Below are positions 1-5,587 of a DNA stretch of 5,587 bases, piece by piece. The DNA lies in contig JAJZOM010000069.1 of assembly GCA_021811505.1 (NCBI GenBank), positions 1 through 5,587 of the forward strand, given 5' to 3'. The position numbers and the translations under genes were made by a program. Within the stretch, counting starts at the first letter, position 1, and each line of letters starts with the position of its first letter. Below the pieces are notes generated by a model. It was not told the origin of the DNA, did no database searches, and saw nothing but the letters and a program-made list of their open reading frames with translations. The stretch is from Thermoplasmata archaeon (GTDB lineage: Archaea > Thermoplasmatota > Thermoplasmata > Thermoplasmatales > Thermoplasmataceae).

Positions 1-882
1 ATAGGGGCCGTAATATGATCCAACACCGGCATGATCTCTTCCTATTATGAAATGTGTGCAACCGAAATTCTTGCGCATTATTGCGTGTATAACGGCTTCT
101 CTTGGACCAGCATACATCATTTCGTAGTTAATCGGAGATAGGAGAACACTACCATTGGGAAAGTAATTGTCTATCAGTGTTCTGTACCCTTTGATTATGG
201 CTTCGTCGCTGTAATCTCCGTTTTTTTTCTTTCCAATCACAGGGTTGATGAAGAGGCCATCCGTGCTCTGCAAAGCCATTTTCTGAATGTATTCGTGTCC
301 GCGATGCGGGATATTCCTTGTTTGAAATGCGGAAATAGTTTTCCAGCTTTTCTGCTTGAAGATTTTTCTGGTTGCATTCGGAGTCATTACAAGTTCGCTG
401 AAAGGTAATTCAGGTGATATTGACCATAGAAGCTTGCCCGAGATAATTTTTCTGGGTTTGACTGCGATTTTTGCTACTCCGGGATGTTCCAGAGAATCTG
501 TTCCAAACACCGCTCTACCGTACATTCTCCAATCTATTCTGAATATTTCTTCAGCCTTGACACAGCCCACGGATTTTCCTTGGAAATTAAGGATTACATT
601 ATCACCCTCCCTTATGATTTCATTAGTTTTGTCCTCAACATGCAATAAGTATGGGATACTCCATGGAATGCCGTTTTCAAGTCTCTGGCTTTCAAGAATT
701 GATAGATAATCGTTCTGCCCTACAAATCCATGTAGAGGGCTGAATATTCCATCTTTTATATTGGAAATTGTGGATGCAGCTTCTGAATCGACCTCAATTC
801 TGAAAAGCCCTTTTACGTCAAGTTCTGATCCTTCCGGGTCTTTTATTGATACGAGGTTTCCACCATGTGGTTCAGAAAACAT
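1..882 (-). CDS. sat: ATP sulfurylase (sulfate adenylyltransferase), C-terminus cut by window edge
   Basis: Catalyses ATP + sulfate to adenylylsulfate (APS) + pyrophosphate, the activating step of sulfate assimilation in the cytoplasm. The 294 residues visible show the family's motifs in order: GIFSPLHGF (about 45-53), QTRN (187-190) followed by the nucleotide-binding HRGH (193-196), GPREAVIHA (259-267) and GRDHAG (281-286). The reading frame is open to base 1; archaeal Sat proteins are usually some 380-450 residues, so about a quarter is missing. Two in-frame ATGs exist, at 888 and 882. I chose 882 because the GGAGG at 891-895 is 8 bases from it but only 2 bases from 888. It overlaps the end of cysH by 11 bases, so the two are surely one transcript and probably translationally coupled. 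No APS kinase domain is seen in the visible part. Identification is firm from the motifs; the exact start is an inference. Confidence 0.95.
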   Translation of the reverse strand, partial: MFSEPHGGNLVSIKDPEGSELDVKGLFRIEVDSEAASTISNIKDGIFSPLHGFVGQNDYLSILESQRLENGIPWSIPYLLHVEDKTNEIIREGDNVILNFQGKSVGCVKAEEIFRIDWRMYGRAVFGTDSLEHPGVAKIAVKPRKIISGKLLWSISPELPFSELVMTPNATRKIFKQKSWKTISAFQTRNIPHRGHEYIQKMALQSTDGLFINPVIGKKKNGDYSDEAIIKGYRTLIDNYFPNGSVLLSPINYEMMYAGPREAVIHAIMRKNFGCTHFIIGRDHAGVGSYYGPY

Positions 883-1660
883 TGTCATTTCCTCCGTTGT
901 TTGAACCTTTTTCCCGTTTTCCAGAAATGCGTATAAAGTCCGGAGTGGAAAGAAGCTTTTCAGAGCCTTCGGTGTGCAGTCCGCATTCCTTCTGGCCATC
1001 TTCCCACCACCAGCGTCCGGATCGCTGGTCATCTCCCTGCCGCACCGCCCTTGTGCAAGGCTCACAGCCAATGCTCGGATATCCCAGGTCATGCAGTTTA
1101 TTGTACGGGACATTATTCTGTTTTATATAGTCCCAGACCTGATCAGATTTCCACTCTATTATTGGATTAACTTTGACTATGTCCTTTTCCTTGTCGTATT
1201 CCACCAATTTCGATCCTGATCGAAATATAGTCTGTTCCCTTCTGATGCCGGTTATCCATATCTCGTGGTTTTTTAGGATTCTCCGCAACGGTTCAACTTT
1301 CCTCACATTGCAGCAGAGTGCCCTGTTTTCCCTGGATTTGTAAAATAGGTTGAGGCCGTATTCATCGACCATTTTCTGAACTTCCTCTTTATCCGGGAAG
1401 AAGGTACGAAAGGAGATTCCGTAACCATTTCTTACCGTATCCATAATCTGATAGGTTTCCTCGGGTAAGCGTCCCGTGTCAATGGAAGCGATCTCGATCC
1501 GGTTTCCATGTTTCTTAATCAGGTTCATCATGACCATGTCCTCTGCGCCGAAGCTTGAGGTAAATACAGCCCGGTTTCCAAACTCCTGAGATATATAGCC
1601 CAAAAATTTCGCTGGATCTCTGCTATGTTTCTCAAGATTGACCATTTCTTCCGGATTCAT
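872..1660 (-). CDS. cysH: APS/PAPS reductase of the iron-sulfur type (CysH family)
   Basis: Reduces the activated sulfate made by Sat to sulfite plus AMP (or PAP) using a thiol donor such as thioredoxin. The 262 residues show SSFGAED (35-41, phosphate-binding loop), DTGRLPEET (61-69), the cysteine pair C116-C117, GIRREQ (138-143), C199-x-x-C202, and the C-terminal ECGLH (225-229) with the catalytic Cys226. The CC plus CxxC set ligates a [4Fe-4S] cluster in APS-using enzymes, and no APS kinase is visible here, so APS is the likelier substrate; this remains an inference. The length is normal for the family. The ATG at 1660 has no ribosome-binding site but lies about 26 bases from the centre of a TATA box (1683-1690), which fits a leaderless first gene. 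A perfect palindrome lies just before the start. Its stop overlaps the sat start. Confidence 0.95.
   Translation of the reverse strand: MNPEEMVNLEKHSRDPAKFLGYISQEFGNRAVFTSSFGAEDMVMMNLIKKHGNRIEIASIDTGRLPEETYQIMDTVRNGYGISFRTFFPDKEEVQKMVDEYGLNLFYKSRENRALCCNVRKVEPLRRILKNHEIWITGIRREQTIFRSGSKLVEYDKEKDIVKVNPIIEWKSDQVWDYIKQNNVPYNKLHDLGYPSIGCEPCTRAVRQGDDQRSGRWWWEDGQKECGLHTEGSEKLLSTPDFIRISGKREKGSNNGGNDNVF
891..895 (-). promoter_or_regulatory. Ribosome binding site of sat, inside the end of cysH
   Basis: GGAGG on the minus strand lies within the last codons of cysH, 8 bases before the ATG at 882. It decides between the two candidate sat starts and explains how the downstream gene of the operon is translated although the upstream gene appears leaderless. 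Confidence 0.7.
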
Positions 1661-1676: not shown

Positions 1677-1682
1677 TGACGC

Positions 1683-1690
1683 TATTAAAT
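1683..1690 (-). promoter_or_regulatory. TATA box of the cysH-sat operon
   Basis: The minus strand reads ATTTAATA here, in an AT-rich block flanked by GC-richer sequence. Its centre is about 26 bases before the A of the cysH ATG, the normal archaeal TATA-to-start-site distance. This predicts a transcript starting at or next to the start codon. Confidence 0.55.
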
Positions 1691-1733
1691 TAGGGAAATG
1701 AGACATTTTGAAAGGATATGCGCAATTTTTGCT

Positions 1734-1762
1734 TTTAAAGTGTCCATTATATCTTTAAAGCG
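1734..1762 (+). repeat. Direct repeat TTTAAAG(T/C)G, 20 bases apart
   Basis: TTTAAAGTG at 1734-1742 and TTTAAAGCG at 1754-1762 differ at one base and are offset by 20 bases, close to two helical turns. The second copy is the proposed comA TATA box. The first could be a duplicate promoter element or part of a binding site. The motif is AT-rich, so chance is quite possible. Confidence 0.25.
1753..1760 (+). promoter_or_regulatory. TATA box of the comA-HTH gene
   Basis: CTTTAAAG, within a longer AT-rich stretch from 1746, is centred about 25.5 bases before the ATG at 1782. No ribosome-binding site precedes that ATG, so a leaderless transcript is predicted. This also supports starting the protein at 1782 and not at the in-frame ATG at 1698. 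Confidence 0.55.
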
Positions 1763-1781: not shown

Positions 1782-2759
1782 ATGGAATCATTCTTATCTG
1801 ACATAATCCAGAAAGATGGTGAAAAGATGGGCCGCACTATGGTAATAGACCGACTGGCCTTCGGAAATTATGAAGACATGTCTTTTCTGTCCCCTTATTT
1901 CAACATACTAAAAATAGGATGGACTCTCCCCAATTTACTCGATGAGCAAACGTTGAGAAGCAGAGTTTCAAAGTTTAGGGAACATAGCCTTCATGTCTCG
2001 AATGGAGGTACTTTGCTCGAAGTGGCTGTATCCAGAATGAGACATATTGATGCCATCAGGAAACTCATAGACACTGGATTCGACACAATTGAACTCAGCG
2101 AAGGTACAATCGATATTCCGGACAGAATAAAAATGGAAATAGCTGAATTTGTACATTCCAATGGACTGAAACTGAATTTTGAGGTCGGTAAAAAGAATCC
2201 GAGAAATCAGTTAAGCCTCACCGAGACCATAGAGAGGGCGAATGCAGCTATGGACCTTGAACCTGACCTCATAATTATCGAGGGCAGGGAATCCGGAAGG
2301 AGCGTTGAAATATATGACGATAATGGTGAGATAAAATGGGACTGGGTCACTTCAATTCTGGAATCTGTTTCACTGGAGAAAATCATGTTCGAAGCTCCCA
2401 TGGAAAAACAACAGATAGAATTCGTGATAAGGCTGGGATATGAGGTTAATCTCGGGAATGTTGACATTAGGAGTGTTGCAGCCCTTGAAACCCAGAGGAG
2501 GGGACTCAGGGGAGATACGTTTGGAATTTTCAGAGATTCATCAAATGTTACAGGTGCTCCAGCCACCAAGTTCGTATATTATGTAATTTCCAACCGCGGT
2601 CCCATAGATCAGAATTCTATAATACAGATAACAGGTTTAAAGAGAAAGACTGTTCAGAACTCAATCAAGATCCTTATAGAAAATGGCCTGATAAGAGAAA
2701 CCGTTGACCGGAACGACCTCCGCAAAAAAGTATATTTATTGAATCTTCTCAGGAAATGA
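1782..2759 (+). CDS. comA: Phosphosulfolactate synthase (ComA family) fused to a C-terminal winged HTH domain
   Basis: Residues 1-255 of 325 match ComA, a TIM-barrel enzyme that adds sulfite to phosphoenolpyruvate to give (2R)-phospho-3-sulfolactate, the first step of one coenzyme M route. Motifs seen: TMVID (19-23), LKIGWT (43-48), NGGTLLE (74-80), IELSEGT (103-109), EVGKK (134-138), IEGRESG (166-172), FEAP (203-206), NLGNV (223-227) and LETQRRGLRGDT (235-246). Most residues conserved in the family are kept, but the usual DKG near the N-terminus reads DRL. ComA normally ends near 250 residues. Here residues about 260-320 form a winged helix-turn-helix, with a recognition-helix-like GLKRKTVQNSIKIL followed by GLIRE and a basic wing. 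The gene is divergent from cysH-sat, whose product sulfite is the ComA substrate. The in-frame ATG at 1698 would add 28 residues lacking family similarity; the TATA spacing favours 1782. Enzyme, regulator or both is open. Confidence 0.85.
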   Translation: MESFLSDIIQKDGEKMGRTMVIDRLAFGNYEDMSFLSPYFNILKIGWTLPNLLDEQTLRSRVSKFREHSLHVSNGGTLLEVAVSRMRHIDAIRKLIDTGFDTIELSEGTIDIPDRIKMEIAEFVHSNGLKLNFEVGKKNPRNQLSLTETIERANAAMDLEPDLIIIEGRESGRSVEIYDDNGEIKWDWVTSILESVSLEKIMFEAPMEKQQIEFVIRLGYEVNLGNVDIRSVAALETQRRGLRGDTFGIFRDSSNVTGAPATKFVYYVISNRGPIDQNSIIQITGLKRKTVQNSIKILIENGLIRETVDRNDLRKKVYLLNLLRK

Positions 2760-2924: not shown

Positions 2925-2932
2925 CTGATTTG

Positions 2933-4456
2933 GTGGTCTTCAGGAGCATACTGATAAAGGATTCAGACAGAAGGACAGATACTGCACGGGAAGAACCGGA
3001 ATTTTTTGTGGACCTTAATCTTGGTCAGATTGTGGACGGCATATCATCTTTGGCTAAGGAATATGACGTGAAGCCTTTCTTCATGAATCCGCTAGACAGT
3101 GAAGATGAACTCATCTACAGGCAAGAGATCTTTTCTGATCTGGAAAACCCTAGGCTTTTCGAACACGTAAAATCGTTTTCAATGGAGTTGAAGCGGGTTA
3201 ATAACTATCTTTCTGGAATCGACCGCATGTATGAATACCAGAGAGAAGGATGGTTCGCCGATGCAATTGAGATTTACTGCAATGCCGTCAGGAATTTTGC
3301 AGAGAACCTTTCTGATGAACCCATTCACTCTCTTGGAATGTCTGAACTTAGGGAATACCTGGATCAATACATAAAATCTGAGAATTTCTCGAAGCTTGTC
3401 AGCGATTTGCAAAGGATCAGATCAGAACTGTCTGAAGTTAGGTACGTTATGACCTTCGGATCGGACCGAATATCTGTTCAAAGGCGCGAGGCAGGCGAAG
3501 ATTATAGCCTGGAAGTGAAGAAGGTCTTCCGGAAATTCCAGGAAGGTGAGAAACAGGTGAGTAAAATTCCATTGAAAGAGCCCCTGGGTATGAGTCACGT
3601 TGAGGCTGCAGTGCTGGGTCTGGTTGCAAAACTCTATCCTGAAACCTTCAGAAACCTCACGGACTTCTGCTCAATGCACAGAGATTTTTTTGACGCCAGT
3701 ATATCGCGTTTTCATAGGGAAGTTCAGTTCTATGTCGCCTACCTTGAATACATCGCTCCAATAAAATCAAGAGGCCTCAGCTTCTGCATACCGAAAGTTT
3801 CCGCCGACAAAAATATCTCTGGAAAGAATATCTTTGATATTGCACTGGCAGCAAAGCTTGCCAAGAAAAGTGTCAATGTTGTTCCCAATGATTTTTACCT
3901 CTTAAACGGAGAACGCATAATTGTGGTCACCGGCCCAAACAATGGAGGAAAAACCACATTTGCCAGGGCATTCGGGCAGTCACACTACCTTGCAAGCCTT
4001 GGTTTACCTGTATCAGGTACTGAAGCACACCTGTTCCTGTTCGATAGAATATTTACCCATTTTGAAAAATCTGAGGACCTGGAAAATCTGAGAGGCAAAT
4101 TGGAAGATGATCTGGTAAGAATAAGGAGAATCTTCGATGATAGCACTTCCAGAAGCATAATCATCATAAACGAGATGCTAAGCTCAACGACAATAAGTGA
4201 CGCAGTATTCATTGGCAGGAAGATAATCGATATCATCCGGGGTTTGGATTGCCTCTGTATCTTTGTCACATTTCTTGACGAGATAACTGAACTGGATGGG
4301 ACTGTTAGTATGGTCAGTGAGGTTGATACGATGAATCCGGAAATTCGAACTTACAGGATTTTGAGACGCCCATCGGACGGTCTTGCCTATGCTATGGCAC
4401 TTTCCAGAAAATATGGAGTGACCTATGACAGCATAATGGAGAGGATCAAAGAATGA
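2933..4456 (+). CDS. MutS-related ATPase, first of a tandem pair
   Basis: A 507-residue protein with a helical N-terminal part and a MutS-type ATPase domain from about residue 325 to the end. Walker A is GPNNGGKT (334-341). The Walker B region reads IIIINEM (409-415) then LSSTT, where classical MutS has a D-E pair followed by GRGT; the Asp is Asn here. The histidine of the classical TH(Y/F) switch is replaced in VTFLDE (about 445-450). The FTHFEKSEDLENL stretch after Walker A is shared with the next protein. No room or motif exists for the N-terminal mismatch-recognition domain (no FxE motif seen), so mismatch repair should not be assumed. MutS-related proteins of this kind with NE at Walker B are known to me as a distinct subgroup. 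The next gene overlaps its stop by 4 bases (ATGA), suggesting coupled translation and a protein pair. TTG at 2930 is an alternative start. Confidence 0.85.
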   Translation: MVFRSILIKDSDRRTDTAREEPEFFVDLNLGQIVDGISSLAKEYDVKPFFMNPLDSEDELIYRQEIFSDLENPRLFEHVKSFSMELKRVNNYLSGIDRMYEYQREGWFADAIEIYCNAVRNFAENLSDEPIHSLGMSELREYLDQYIKSENFSKLVSDLQRIRSELSEVRYVMTFGSDRISVQRREAGEDYSLEVKKVFRKFQEGEKQVSKIPLKEPLGMSHVEAAVLGLVAKLYPETFRNLTDFCSMHRDFFDASISRFHREVQFYVAYLEYIAPIKSRGLSFCIPKVSADKNISGKNIFDIALAAKLAKKSVNVVPNDFYLLNGERIIVVTGPNNGGKTTFARAFGQSHYLASLGLPVSGTEAHLFLFDRIFTHFEKSEDLENLRGKLEDDLVRIRRIFDDSTSRSIIIINEMLSSTTISDAVFIGRKIIDIIRGLDCLCIFVTFLDEITELDGTVSMVSEVDTMNPEIRTYRILRRPSDGLAYAMALSRKYGVTYDSIMERIKE

Positions 4457-5587
4457 AAGCCTTTCTGATGTTCAGAGACAAAAATTTTGACGTAAATATG
4501 AAACTCCCATGGAATGCAGAACATCTTTTGAAGGACCTGGAGCTGGATACGATACTGGACAGCATGTCCATGGGTGATAAGTTCATCAGGGAAGTGTCAT
4601 CAAAGGTTCTACTGTCGGGTTCGAAGGATATGAGAACTATCCTGTATCGTCAGGATGTCTTGAAAGATGCTCTAAAAAATGCAGGAATTGTAAGGAAGAT
4701 CTATGGAATTCTGGTAAACGCCATCTTAGAGGCCAAGAAGCAATATTTCTGGATCAGCCATTCCAATCCGGAGTTTATCCTGCGTGAATCGATTGCCATA
4801 TTGACTATTTACCTGAATGCCCTGCAAAGGCTCAGAGACTTGGCGATCCAAATCTCAGGAAACTTTCAGTCAGAAGGATTCGTGTCCTTGCTATCCCTGA
4901 TGCAGGAAGAATTCAACGAGCAATACGTTGAAACTGTCAGGAAGCACCTTGCCAGCCTGAGGTTCACTAACGGAGTAATTGTCAGGGGCGGGCTGGGGAA
5001 AGGGAACGGATTGACGAATTACATGCTTCTGAAGCCTACGGGCAGAAAGTGGAGGTTGCCCAGTGTCCTTAATCCAAGAAATGGCCACCATTATACTTAC
5101 ATTCTTCCGGAACGGGATGAAACTGGCGCGCAATCGCTTACCGAAATGCGAATCAGAGGTATATTGTCGGTTTCTAGCATTCTAGGGGATTCTGCTGAAA
5201 ATGTTCTTAACTTCCTCAATGGACTCAAAGCTGAACTGGCTTTTTACATAGGTTGCATTAACCTGCACGATCAGATTAGTCAGATAGGGTCTCCGCTATG
5301 CTTCCCTCAGCCAGGGGAGACCGGCGATTCCAATTTGAAATTCCAGGAACTCTATGACTTGTCTTTAAGCTTGAAACTGAAAGGAAAGGTGGTTGGGAAT
5401 AATATTGACTCAAACGAGGCCGATCTCATAATCATAACGGGTGCAAACCGCGGAGGGAAATCTACCTTTCTGCGCAGTCTCGGCCAGGCCCAATTATTGA
5501 TGCAGTGTGGGGCGTTCGTACCTGCAGAGTCTTTCCAATATGGAATCTGCAATGATTTGTTCACACATTTCAAGAAAGAGGAAGACC
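4453..5587 (+). CDS. MutS-related ATPase, second of the pair, C-terminus cut by window edge
   Basis: The 378 residues visible run off the right edge in an open frame. The N-terminal part resembles that of the preceding protein (ILYRQDVLKDAL at 63-74 matches LIYRQEIFSDLE in the first). The ATPase domain starts near residue 323, with Walker A GANRGGKST (330-338) and LFTHFKKEED (369-378) at the edge. Walker B and the switch region lie outside the window, so it cannot be told whether this partner keeps the classical acidic pair. From the first protein's length, about 130-150 residues are missing. The ATG is within the ATGA overlap with the upstream stop and has no strong ribosome-binding site of its own, which fits translation by coupling. 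Sequence differs clearly from its neighbour, so this is an old duplication and not a recent repeat. The two probably form a heterodimer with two unequal ATP sites (inference). Confidence 0.85.
   Translation, partial: MKAFLMFRDKNFDVNMKLPWNAEHLLKDLELDTILDSMSMGDKFIREVSSKVLLSGSKDMRTILYRQDVLKDALKNAGIVRKIYGILVNAILEAKKQYFWISHSNPEFILRESIAILTIYLNALQRLRDLAIQISGNFQSEGFVSLLSLMQEEFNEQYVETVRKHLASLRFTNGVIVRGGLGKGNGLTNYMLLKPTGRKWRLPSVLNPRNGHHYTYILPERDETGAQSLTEMRIRGILSVSSILGDSAENVLNFLNGLKAELAFYIGCINLHDQISQIGSPLCFPQPGETGDSNLKFQELYDLSLSLKLKGKVVGNNIDSNEADLIIITGANRGGKSTFLRSLGQAQLLMQCGAFVPAESFQYGICNDLFTHFKKEED

Follow-up and report, generated by a model that had tools for sequence, protein, structure and literature searches.

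What does a protein built like the sulfite-using enzyme ComA do with a predicted DNA-binding domain: is it an enzyme, a regulator or both? The question is raised by one gene in the window, the whole stretch of 5,587 bp of Thermoplasmata DNA analysed here. To our knowledge, little is known about archaeal regulation of sulfate reduction or about the control of toxic sulfite.

The fused protein and its family

The fused comA-winged-helix gene is found at positions 1782..2759 (+ strand) and encodes 325 amino acids; the assignment uses the open reading frame, Pfam and relatives of equal length. A start codon at 1698 was tried and rejected because the candidate operator described below would then lie inside the gene, and because relatives align from about 1782. 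The ComA barrel covers residues 15-248 (1824..2525, +). It matches PF02679 with an E-value of 5e-61, above the curated cut-off of the Pfam profile search, and alignment with 1qwg (Methanocaldococcus jannaschii ComA) identifies the ComA barrel fold; the fold-search alignments cover residues ~15-244. Against the NCBIfam ComA equivalog TIGR03849 the protein scores 209 bits, which is below the cut-off of 280. A winged helix is confidently predicted at residues 260-320 (2559..2741, +) from AlphaFold2 secondary structure, together with MarR_2-type profiles. The original prediction, in which a ComA barrel runs on into a winged helix at about these residues, is thus upheld by the PF02679 match and the modelled helices and wing. 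The extension is also atypical of ComA, as had been claimed; it is absent from the solved M. jannaschii and Bacillus subtilis proteins.

Within Thermoplasmata, the extension is a family trait. Protein search yielded 662 relatives; among the best 120 listed, all but P0108 (247 aa) are 301-353 aa long. Among 300 genomes sampled from the class, 65 have PF02679 and 59 the fused gene. A tree was made with the window, with L001 and L002, and with 67 further regions; it excludes two fragments in G085 and one in G288. Its 71 rows are M. jannaschii, five unextended proteins and 65 fused proteins, and the winged-helix extension is present in all 65. The fused rows form two sister clades, A (33 rows, including the window) and B (32 rows). 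Support is 97/97 for clade B and modest both for clade A (91/67) and for the node uniting A with B (93/46). Some clade-A rows are near-duplicates, and G262 alone supplies three rows (L080, L091 and L098); mixed bins are possible in that genome. Multiple fused copies are also present in G280 (L063, L101) and in G190 and G258 (clades A and B). Five genomes (L035-L038, L079) contain a divergent PF02679 protein which lacks the winged helix and several active-site residues.

Conservation of the C-terminus was counted over 43 pieces out of the 65. P260, F264, Q277, R288, T290, Q292, L298, D312, R314 and Y318 (window numbering) are invariant; R288, T290, Q292 and L298 fall within residues 288-300 (RKTVQNSIKILIE; 2643..2681, +), the presumed recognition helix, which was placed using the AlphaFold2 model and the C-terminal conservation and owes its presumed role to the fold. 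The helix-turn-helix (HTH) of the window is below all Pfam cut-offs (MarR_2 21.9 bits against 27). A profile search of the C-terminal piece alone had been proposed as a check, and it agrees with the assignment: MarR_2 scores 25.7 bits, still below 27, and 40 of the 43 family pieces match it at E <= 0.01. Against the PDB, the winged-helix family profile has MerB2 as its best match (4e-4), followed by MarR proteins (7e-4 and weaker, ~1e-3).

The active site of the barrel is well preserved. Identical in 65/65 fused rows and in M. jannaschii are K44, G46, W47, G76, T77, E80, E104, S106, E134, G136, K138, E167, G172, D179, E204, P206 and N226; these 17 tested positions confirm the claim that most conserved ComA motifs are retained. 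K138 corresponds to K137 of M. jannaschii ComA, a catalytic candidate. R169, R239 and R243 are kept in 63/65 fused rows, and Q210 and Q211 in 64/65. Some positions vary: M. jannaschii and four rows have K in place of R24, 14 rows have E in place of D245, and 61/65 fused rows have R where M. jannaschii has K21. The five unextended rows retain G76, E80, E104, S106, E134, E167, E204 and R239, and are without equivalents of T77, K138, R169, E170, Q210, Q211 and N226. Judged by its residues, the fused barrel most likely still condenses sulfite and phosphoenolpyruvate (PEP) to phosphosulfolactate.

Sulfite-producing neighbours and the shared promoter region

Divergent from the fused gene lies cysH (872..1660, -), which encodes an APS/PAPS reductase (open reading frame, Pfam and NCBIfam profiles). 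It is followed by the ATP sulfurylase gene sat (1..888, -; open reading frame and profiles), which is cut by the window end; its start was set at 888 by eye because the listed reading frame (1-1113) is too long at the N-terminus. Both genes make sulfite, the substrate of ComA. Listing the extended homologues and their neighbours, a further check proposed with the original prediction, gave the 65 fused rows and a conserved arrangement: cysH is adjacent and divergent in 30/33 clade-A rows (hand count; exceptions L078, L085 and L101). Among these 30 pairs, sat follows cysH in 21, cysH goes off the contig in 3, and there is no adjoining sat in 6. The same divergent pair is found in 3/32 clade-B rows (L071, L076 and L082). 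According to neighbour clusters, no other gene recurs beside the comA-cysH pair across clade A. With a threshold of 195 bits, cysH is found in 39/300 genomes, 37 of which carry the fused gene (Fisher 2e-29, kinship ignored); 22 of the 59 fused-gene genomes have no cysH at this threshold. At E <= 1e-20, cysH is found in 28/29 clade-A genomes and in 10/30 clade-B-only genomes.

Other neighbours were also noted. After the fused gene, the window has two consecutive, mutually related MutS domain V ATPase-like genes (2930-4456 and 4453-5586, +). Both are weakly similar to KamC and MutS/MutS2 (NCBIfam), and none of the other loci read has them next to the fused gene. In clade B, a type I phosphodiesterase gene lies upstream of the fused gene in L061, L070, L074 and (further up) L072, and a short-chain dehydrogenase gene lies downstream in L046, L061, L072, L074 and L097; these neighbours perhaps belong to a sulfonate pathway. 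ATP sulfurylase is encoded upstream of some clade-B fused genes.

The region between comA and cysH contains a candidate operator. The motif input was the 160 bp preceding the fused gene in 26 clade-A loci with cysH; near-duplicates (L090, L092, L099 and L100) were dropped. A palindrome-constrained mixture model gave the 19-bp palindrome ATATGnAAAnTTTnCATAT, in which position 5 is G and position 15 is C at 94%. Its likelihood ratio is 100.6, compared with a mean of 38.1 (s.d. 3.2, maximum 45.9) for 40 dinucleotide shuffles; at width 21 the ratio is 114.4 and the shuffle maximum 47.1. Held-out scoring of the first members of 15 groups gave a Fisher p of 5.6e-10 against shuffles, and of 7e-14 when the controls were taken from elsewhere in the same loci; the loci are related, so these p-values overstate independence beyond the grouping. 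Held-out p is <= 0.05 in 17/26 loci; the other nine (L001, L067, L069, L075, L083, L084, L086, L093 and L094) have no significant held-out site.

In the window, the candidate operator is the imperfect palindrome ATGCGCAATTTTTGCTTTT at 1718..1736 (held-out p 0.007 against shuffles; 0/126 control windows equal). It is located between two TATA-like stretches found by eye, one for the fused gene (1750..1758, +) and one for cysH (1682..1690, -), each ~25 bases ahead of a start codon. Leaderless archaeal genes have their TATA box about 25 bases before the start codon. This position is compatible with a repressor or an activator and does not decide between them. Second copies of the palindrome cluster at a distance of 32-33 bp (z 4.7 at 33; 100 controls reach at most 4.1 at any distance) and also at 20-22 bp (z 3.4-4.0), the spacing one would expect if the sites share a helix face. 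A second copy scoring at least 3.7 at 32-33 bp is present in 10/26 loci; the window is without one.

A strict operator pattern has 28 matches in 29 genomes, 7 of them at the comA-cysH promoter region, compared with 13 for a reversed control pattern; the count is partly circular because the pattern was drawn from the same loci. Thirteen of the 21 outside matches were read by eye; 13/13 overlap predicted open frames and none is at a sulfur gene. In L133, a pattern match (2464-2482) lies over the start of a gene which by eye resembles the archaeal riboflavin kinase-regulator RbkR. Also by eye, RRTVQK in the recognition helix (L048, L065, L096 and L060) tends to go with CGTAT half-sites, and rows with RRTVQN or RRTTQN (L063, L064, L002 and L098) mostly with CATAT half-sites; L087 is an exception.

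Three clade-A fused genes without a cysH neighbour, all outside the training set, have the palindrome at p < 0.004 (L085), 0.03 (L101) and 0.053 (L078), with a combined p of 5e-4. The sole unlinked cysH of this kind in clade A, that of G167 (fused gene L078 elsewhere), has no palindrome (p 0.70), and the clade-A motif is likewise not found at the cysH of G270, a genome without the fused gene (p 0.41). The palindrome thus stays with the fused gene and is absent at the unlinked cysH, which, with small numbers, suggests that in clade A the fused protein regulates its own gene.

Clade B differs. At its comA promoters the clade-A motif shows no excess (Fisher 0.15; 31/32 scored, L040 being too short). 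Six unlinked clade-B cysH genes have weak matches (0.007 to 0.39, combined p 0.0015); the cysH promoter of L153 lies beyond the contig end, and its score is without meaning. Clade B may therefore have a different site, or its action on cysH may be in trans. A clade-B motif search in trimmed sequence from 28 loci gave tTCCtGCGCaGGAa (z 7.6, 16 shuffles). This was set aside because it lies at a fixed distance in several close relatives and overlaps a likely ribosome-binding sequence. GC-rich palindromes such as GCACGCATATCTTGCGTGC are located upstream of cysH genes unlinked to the clade-B fused gene in L147, L148 and L149, and could be a clade-B operator.

Proposed function and alternatives

Other sulfur genes were surveyed in the same genomes. 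Sulfite/nitrite reductases (PF01077) are found in 7/65 PF02679 genomes, with 3 among 29 clade-A genomes; within PF02679 genomes, the set tested, most of those with cysH are without a PF01077 sulfite reductase. A sulfite sink into sulfolactate is plausible. A coenzyme M pathway was considered for clade A and rejected: ComC (PF02615) is found in 0/29 genomes and ComD (TIGR03845) in 0/29 over the cut-off, with one weak match; the absences in this survey are soft because genome completeness is not given. The ComB family PF04029 is present in 26/29 clade-A genomes and also in 37/235 genomes without PF02679, and may therefore only mark lineage. Of 31 comB loci, 29 were scored for the clade-A motif (two are without a found start). 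None of 24 clade-A comB promoters has p below 0.11, and 1/5 in genomes without PF02679 is at p 0.050. ComB was rejected as a co-regulated partner on both counts. A survey of archaeal fusions describes a cysH-threonine synthase fusion in three Thermoplasmata assemblies (PMC11237513), the product of which might be cysteate; the words 'ComA' and 'phosphosulfolactate' are absent from its main text. An account of Methanomassiliicoccales describes three genomes lacking comABC (PMC4153887).

Our preferred reading, to which we give a probability of about 0.65, is that the fused protein is a bifunctional enzyme-regulator of BirA/RbkR type which controls itself and sulfite production and uses the ComA pocket as sensor. 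The original prediction of a regulator or bifunctional enzyme-regulator is supported by the conserved divergent cysH(-sat) and the palindrome. The arrangement suggests that the fused protein may switch its own gene and the adjoining sulfite-making genes via the palindrome between them, and the kept active-site residues appear to favour the bifunctional version over a regulator alone. The ComA barrel would bind sulfite and PEP and join both to phosphosulfolactate. The winged helices, presumably paired by oligomerisation, would bind the palindrome in the promoter region common to comA and cysH(-sat), and barrel occupancy by substrate (the sulfite made by the CysH step) or product would set DNA binding. 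The making and fixing of sulfite would thereby be tuned together. We infer a catalytically active protein that binds the palindrome in response to sulfite, PEP or the product. Repression is our guess for the sign of control, because a palindrome copy in some species sits at the place expected for a leaderless gene's TATA box.

A more specific reading is tentative, and we give it somewhat less than an even chance. These proteins could be trigger enzymes: live phosphosulfolactate synthases whose turnover state gates the winged helix on operators that are tandem and helically phased. In archaea which make sulfite and are mostly without a visible siroheme sulfite reductase, they would sense sulfite by catalysis and couple sulfate reduction to sulfonate synthesis.

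Alternatives give the protein a single role or the palindrome another owner. We think it unlikely that it is purely an enzyme, taking Sat-CysH sulfite to phosphosulfolactate and on to sulfolactate through a ComB-type phosphatase, with the winged helix used for assembly or something else. The kept active site, the presence of PF04029 in clade A and the few PF01077 genomes agree with this, but the invariant R, T and Q of the presumed recognition helix, the D, R and Y of the wing and the conserved palindrome at the fused gene's own promoter speak against it, and PF04029 is perhaps a lineage marker only. To be doubted slightly more is a pure sensor, in which the barrel binds sulfite, PEP or product without catalysis, like regulators derived from dead enzymes. 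Such a barrel would fit the score under the ComA equivalog cut-off, the replacement of K21 by R and the lack of a visible coenzyme M pathway in clade A; however, a dead enzyme would be expected to lose some active-site residues, and K138 and the acidic E and D positions are the same throughout the 65 fused rows. The least probable alternative is that the palindrome is the site of another, unlinked regulator of sulfate reduction and that the winged helix has its targets elsewhere. The weak matches at six unlinked clade-B cysH promoters and the missing excess at clade-B comA promoters would be explained, but in clade A the site follows comA and is missing at the sole unlinked cysH (small numbers), and no other gene recurs beside the pair.

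If the bifunctional reading is true, the fused protein would represent a new kind of sulfite-responsive regulator and would add a new enzyme fold to the few enzyme-regulators. A candidate regulator, a candidate operator and a likely effector class are given together here. The reading also raises the question of why phosphosulfolactate would be made from sulfate by archaea in which no coenzyme M pathway is visible.

Comparison with known systems

ComA, the (2R)-phospho-3-sulfolactate synthase (PF02679; M. jannaschii 1qwg, B. subtilis 1u83), has the same barrel fold and active-site residues. The fused protein differs from it by ~75 extra C-terminal residues, which form the winged helix, and by its pairing with cysH; unlike ComA of the coenzyme M pathway, it occurs in clade-A genomes in which the later genes of that pathway are not seen. 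Plant Hsa32 is a PF02679 protein without the extension. Such unextended ComA-like proteins have PF02679 in common with the fused protein, whereas the five unextended rows are without a winged helix. The C-terminus has the helices and wing of MarR-type proteins. MarR proteins dimerise through extra helices; the fused protein has the winged helix only, without extra dimerisation helices, and in the window this domain does not reach the Pfam cut-offs.

The original prediction knew of no described regulator of this form, and in open-licence PMC literature we likewise found no description of ComA fused to a DNA-binding domain. Enzyme-HTH regulators as such have precedents, and the ComA-based form appears to be new. 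BirA, archaeal RbkR and ThiR each have an enzyme or enzyme-derived domain and an HTH in one chain, with a site at pathway genes. The fused protein shares with them the predicted combination of an enzyme fold and a winged helix or HTH in one chain. A conserved site at own or pathway promoters, as for BirA and RbkR, is found in clade A and is unseen at clade-B comA promoters. The fused protein differs from all three in enzyme fold and substrate and in the C-terminal position of its HTH; ligand-coupled DNA binding, the property that would place it beside them, is our proposal.
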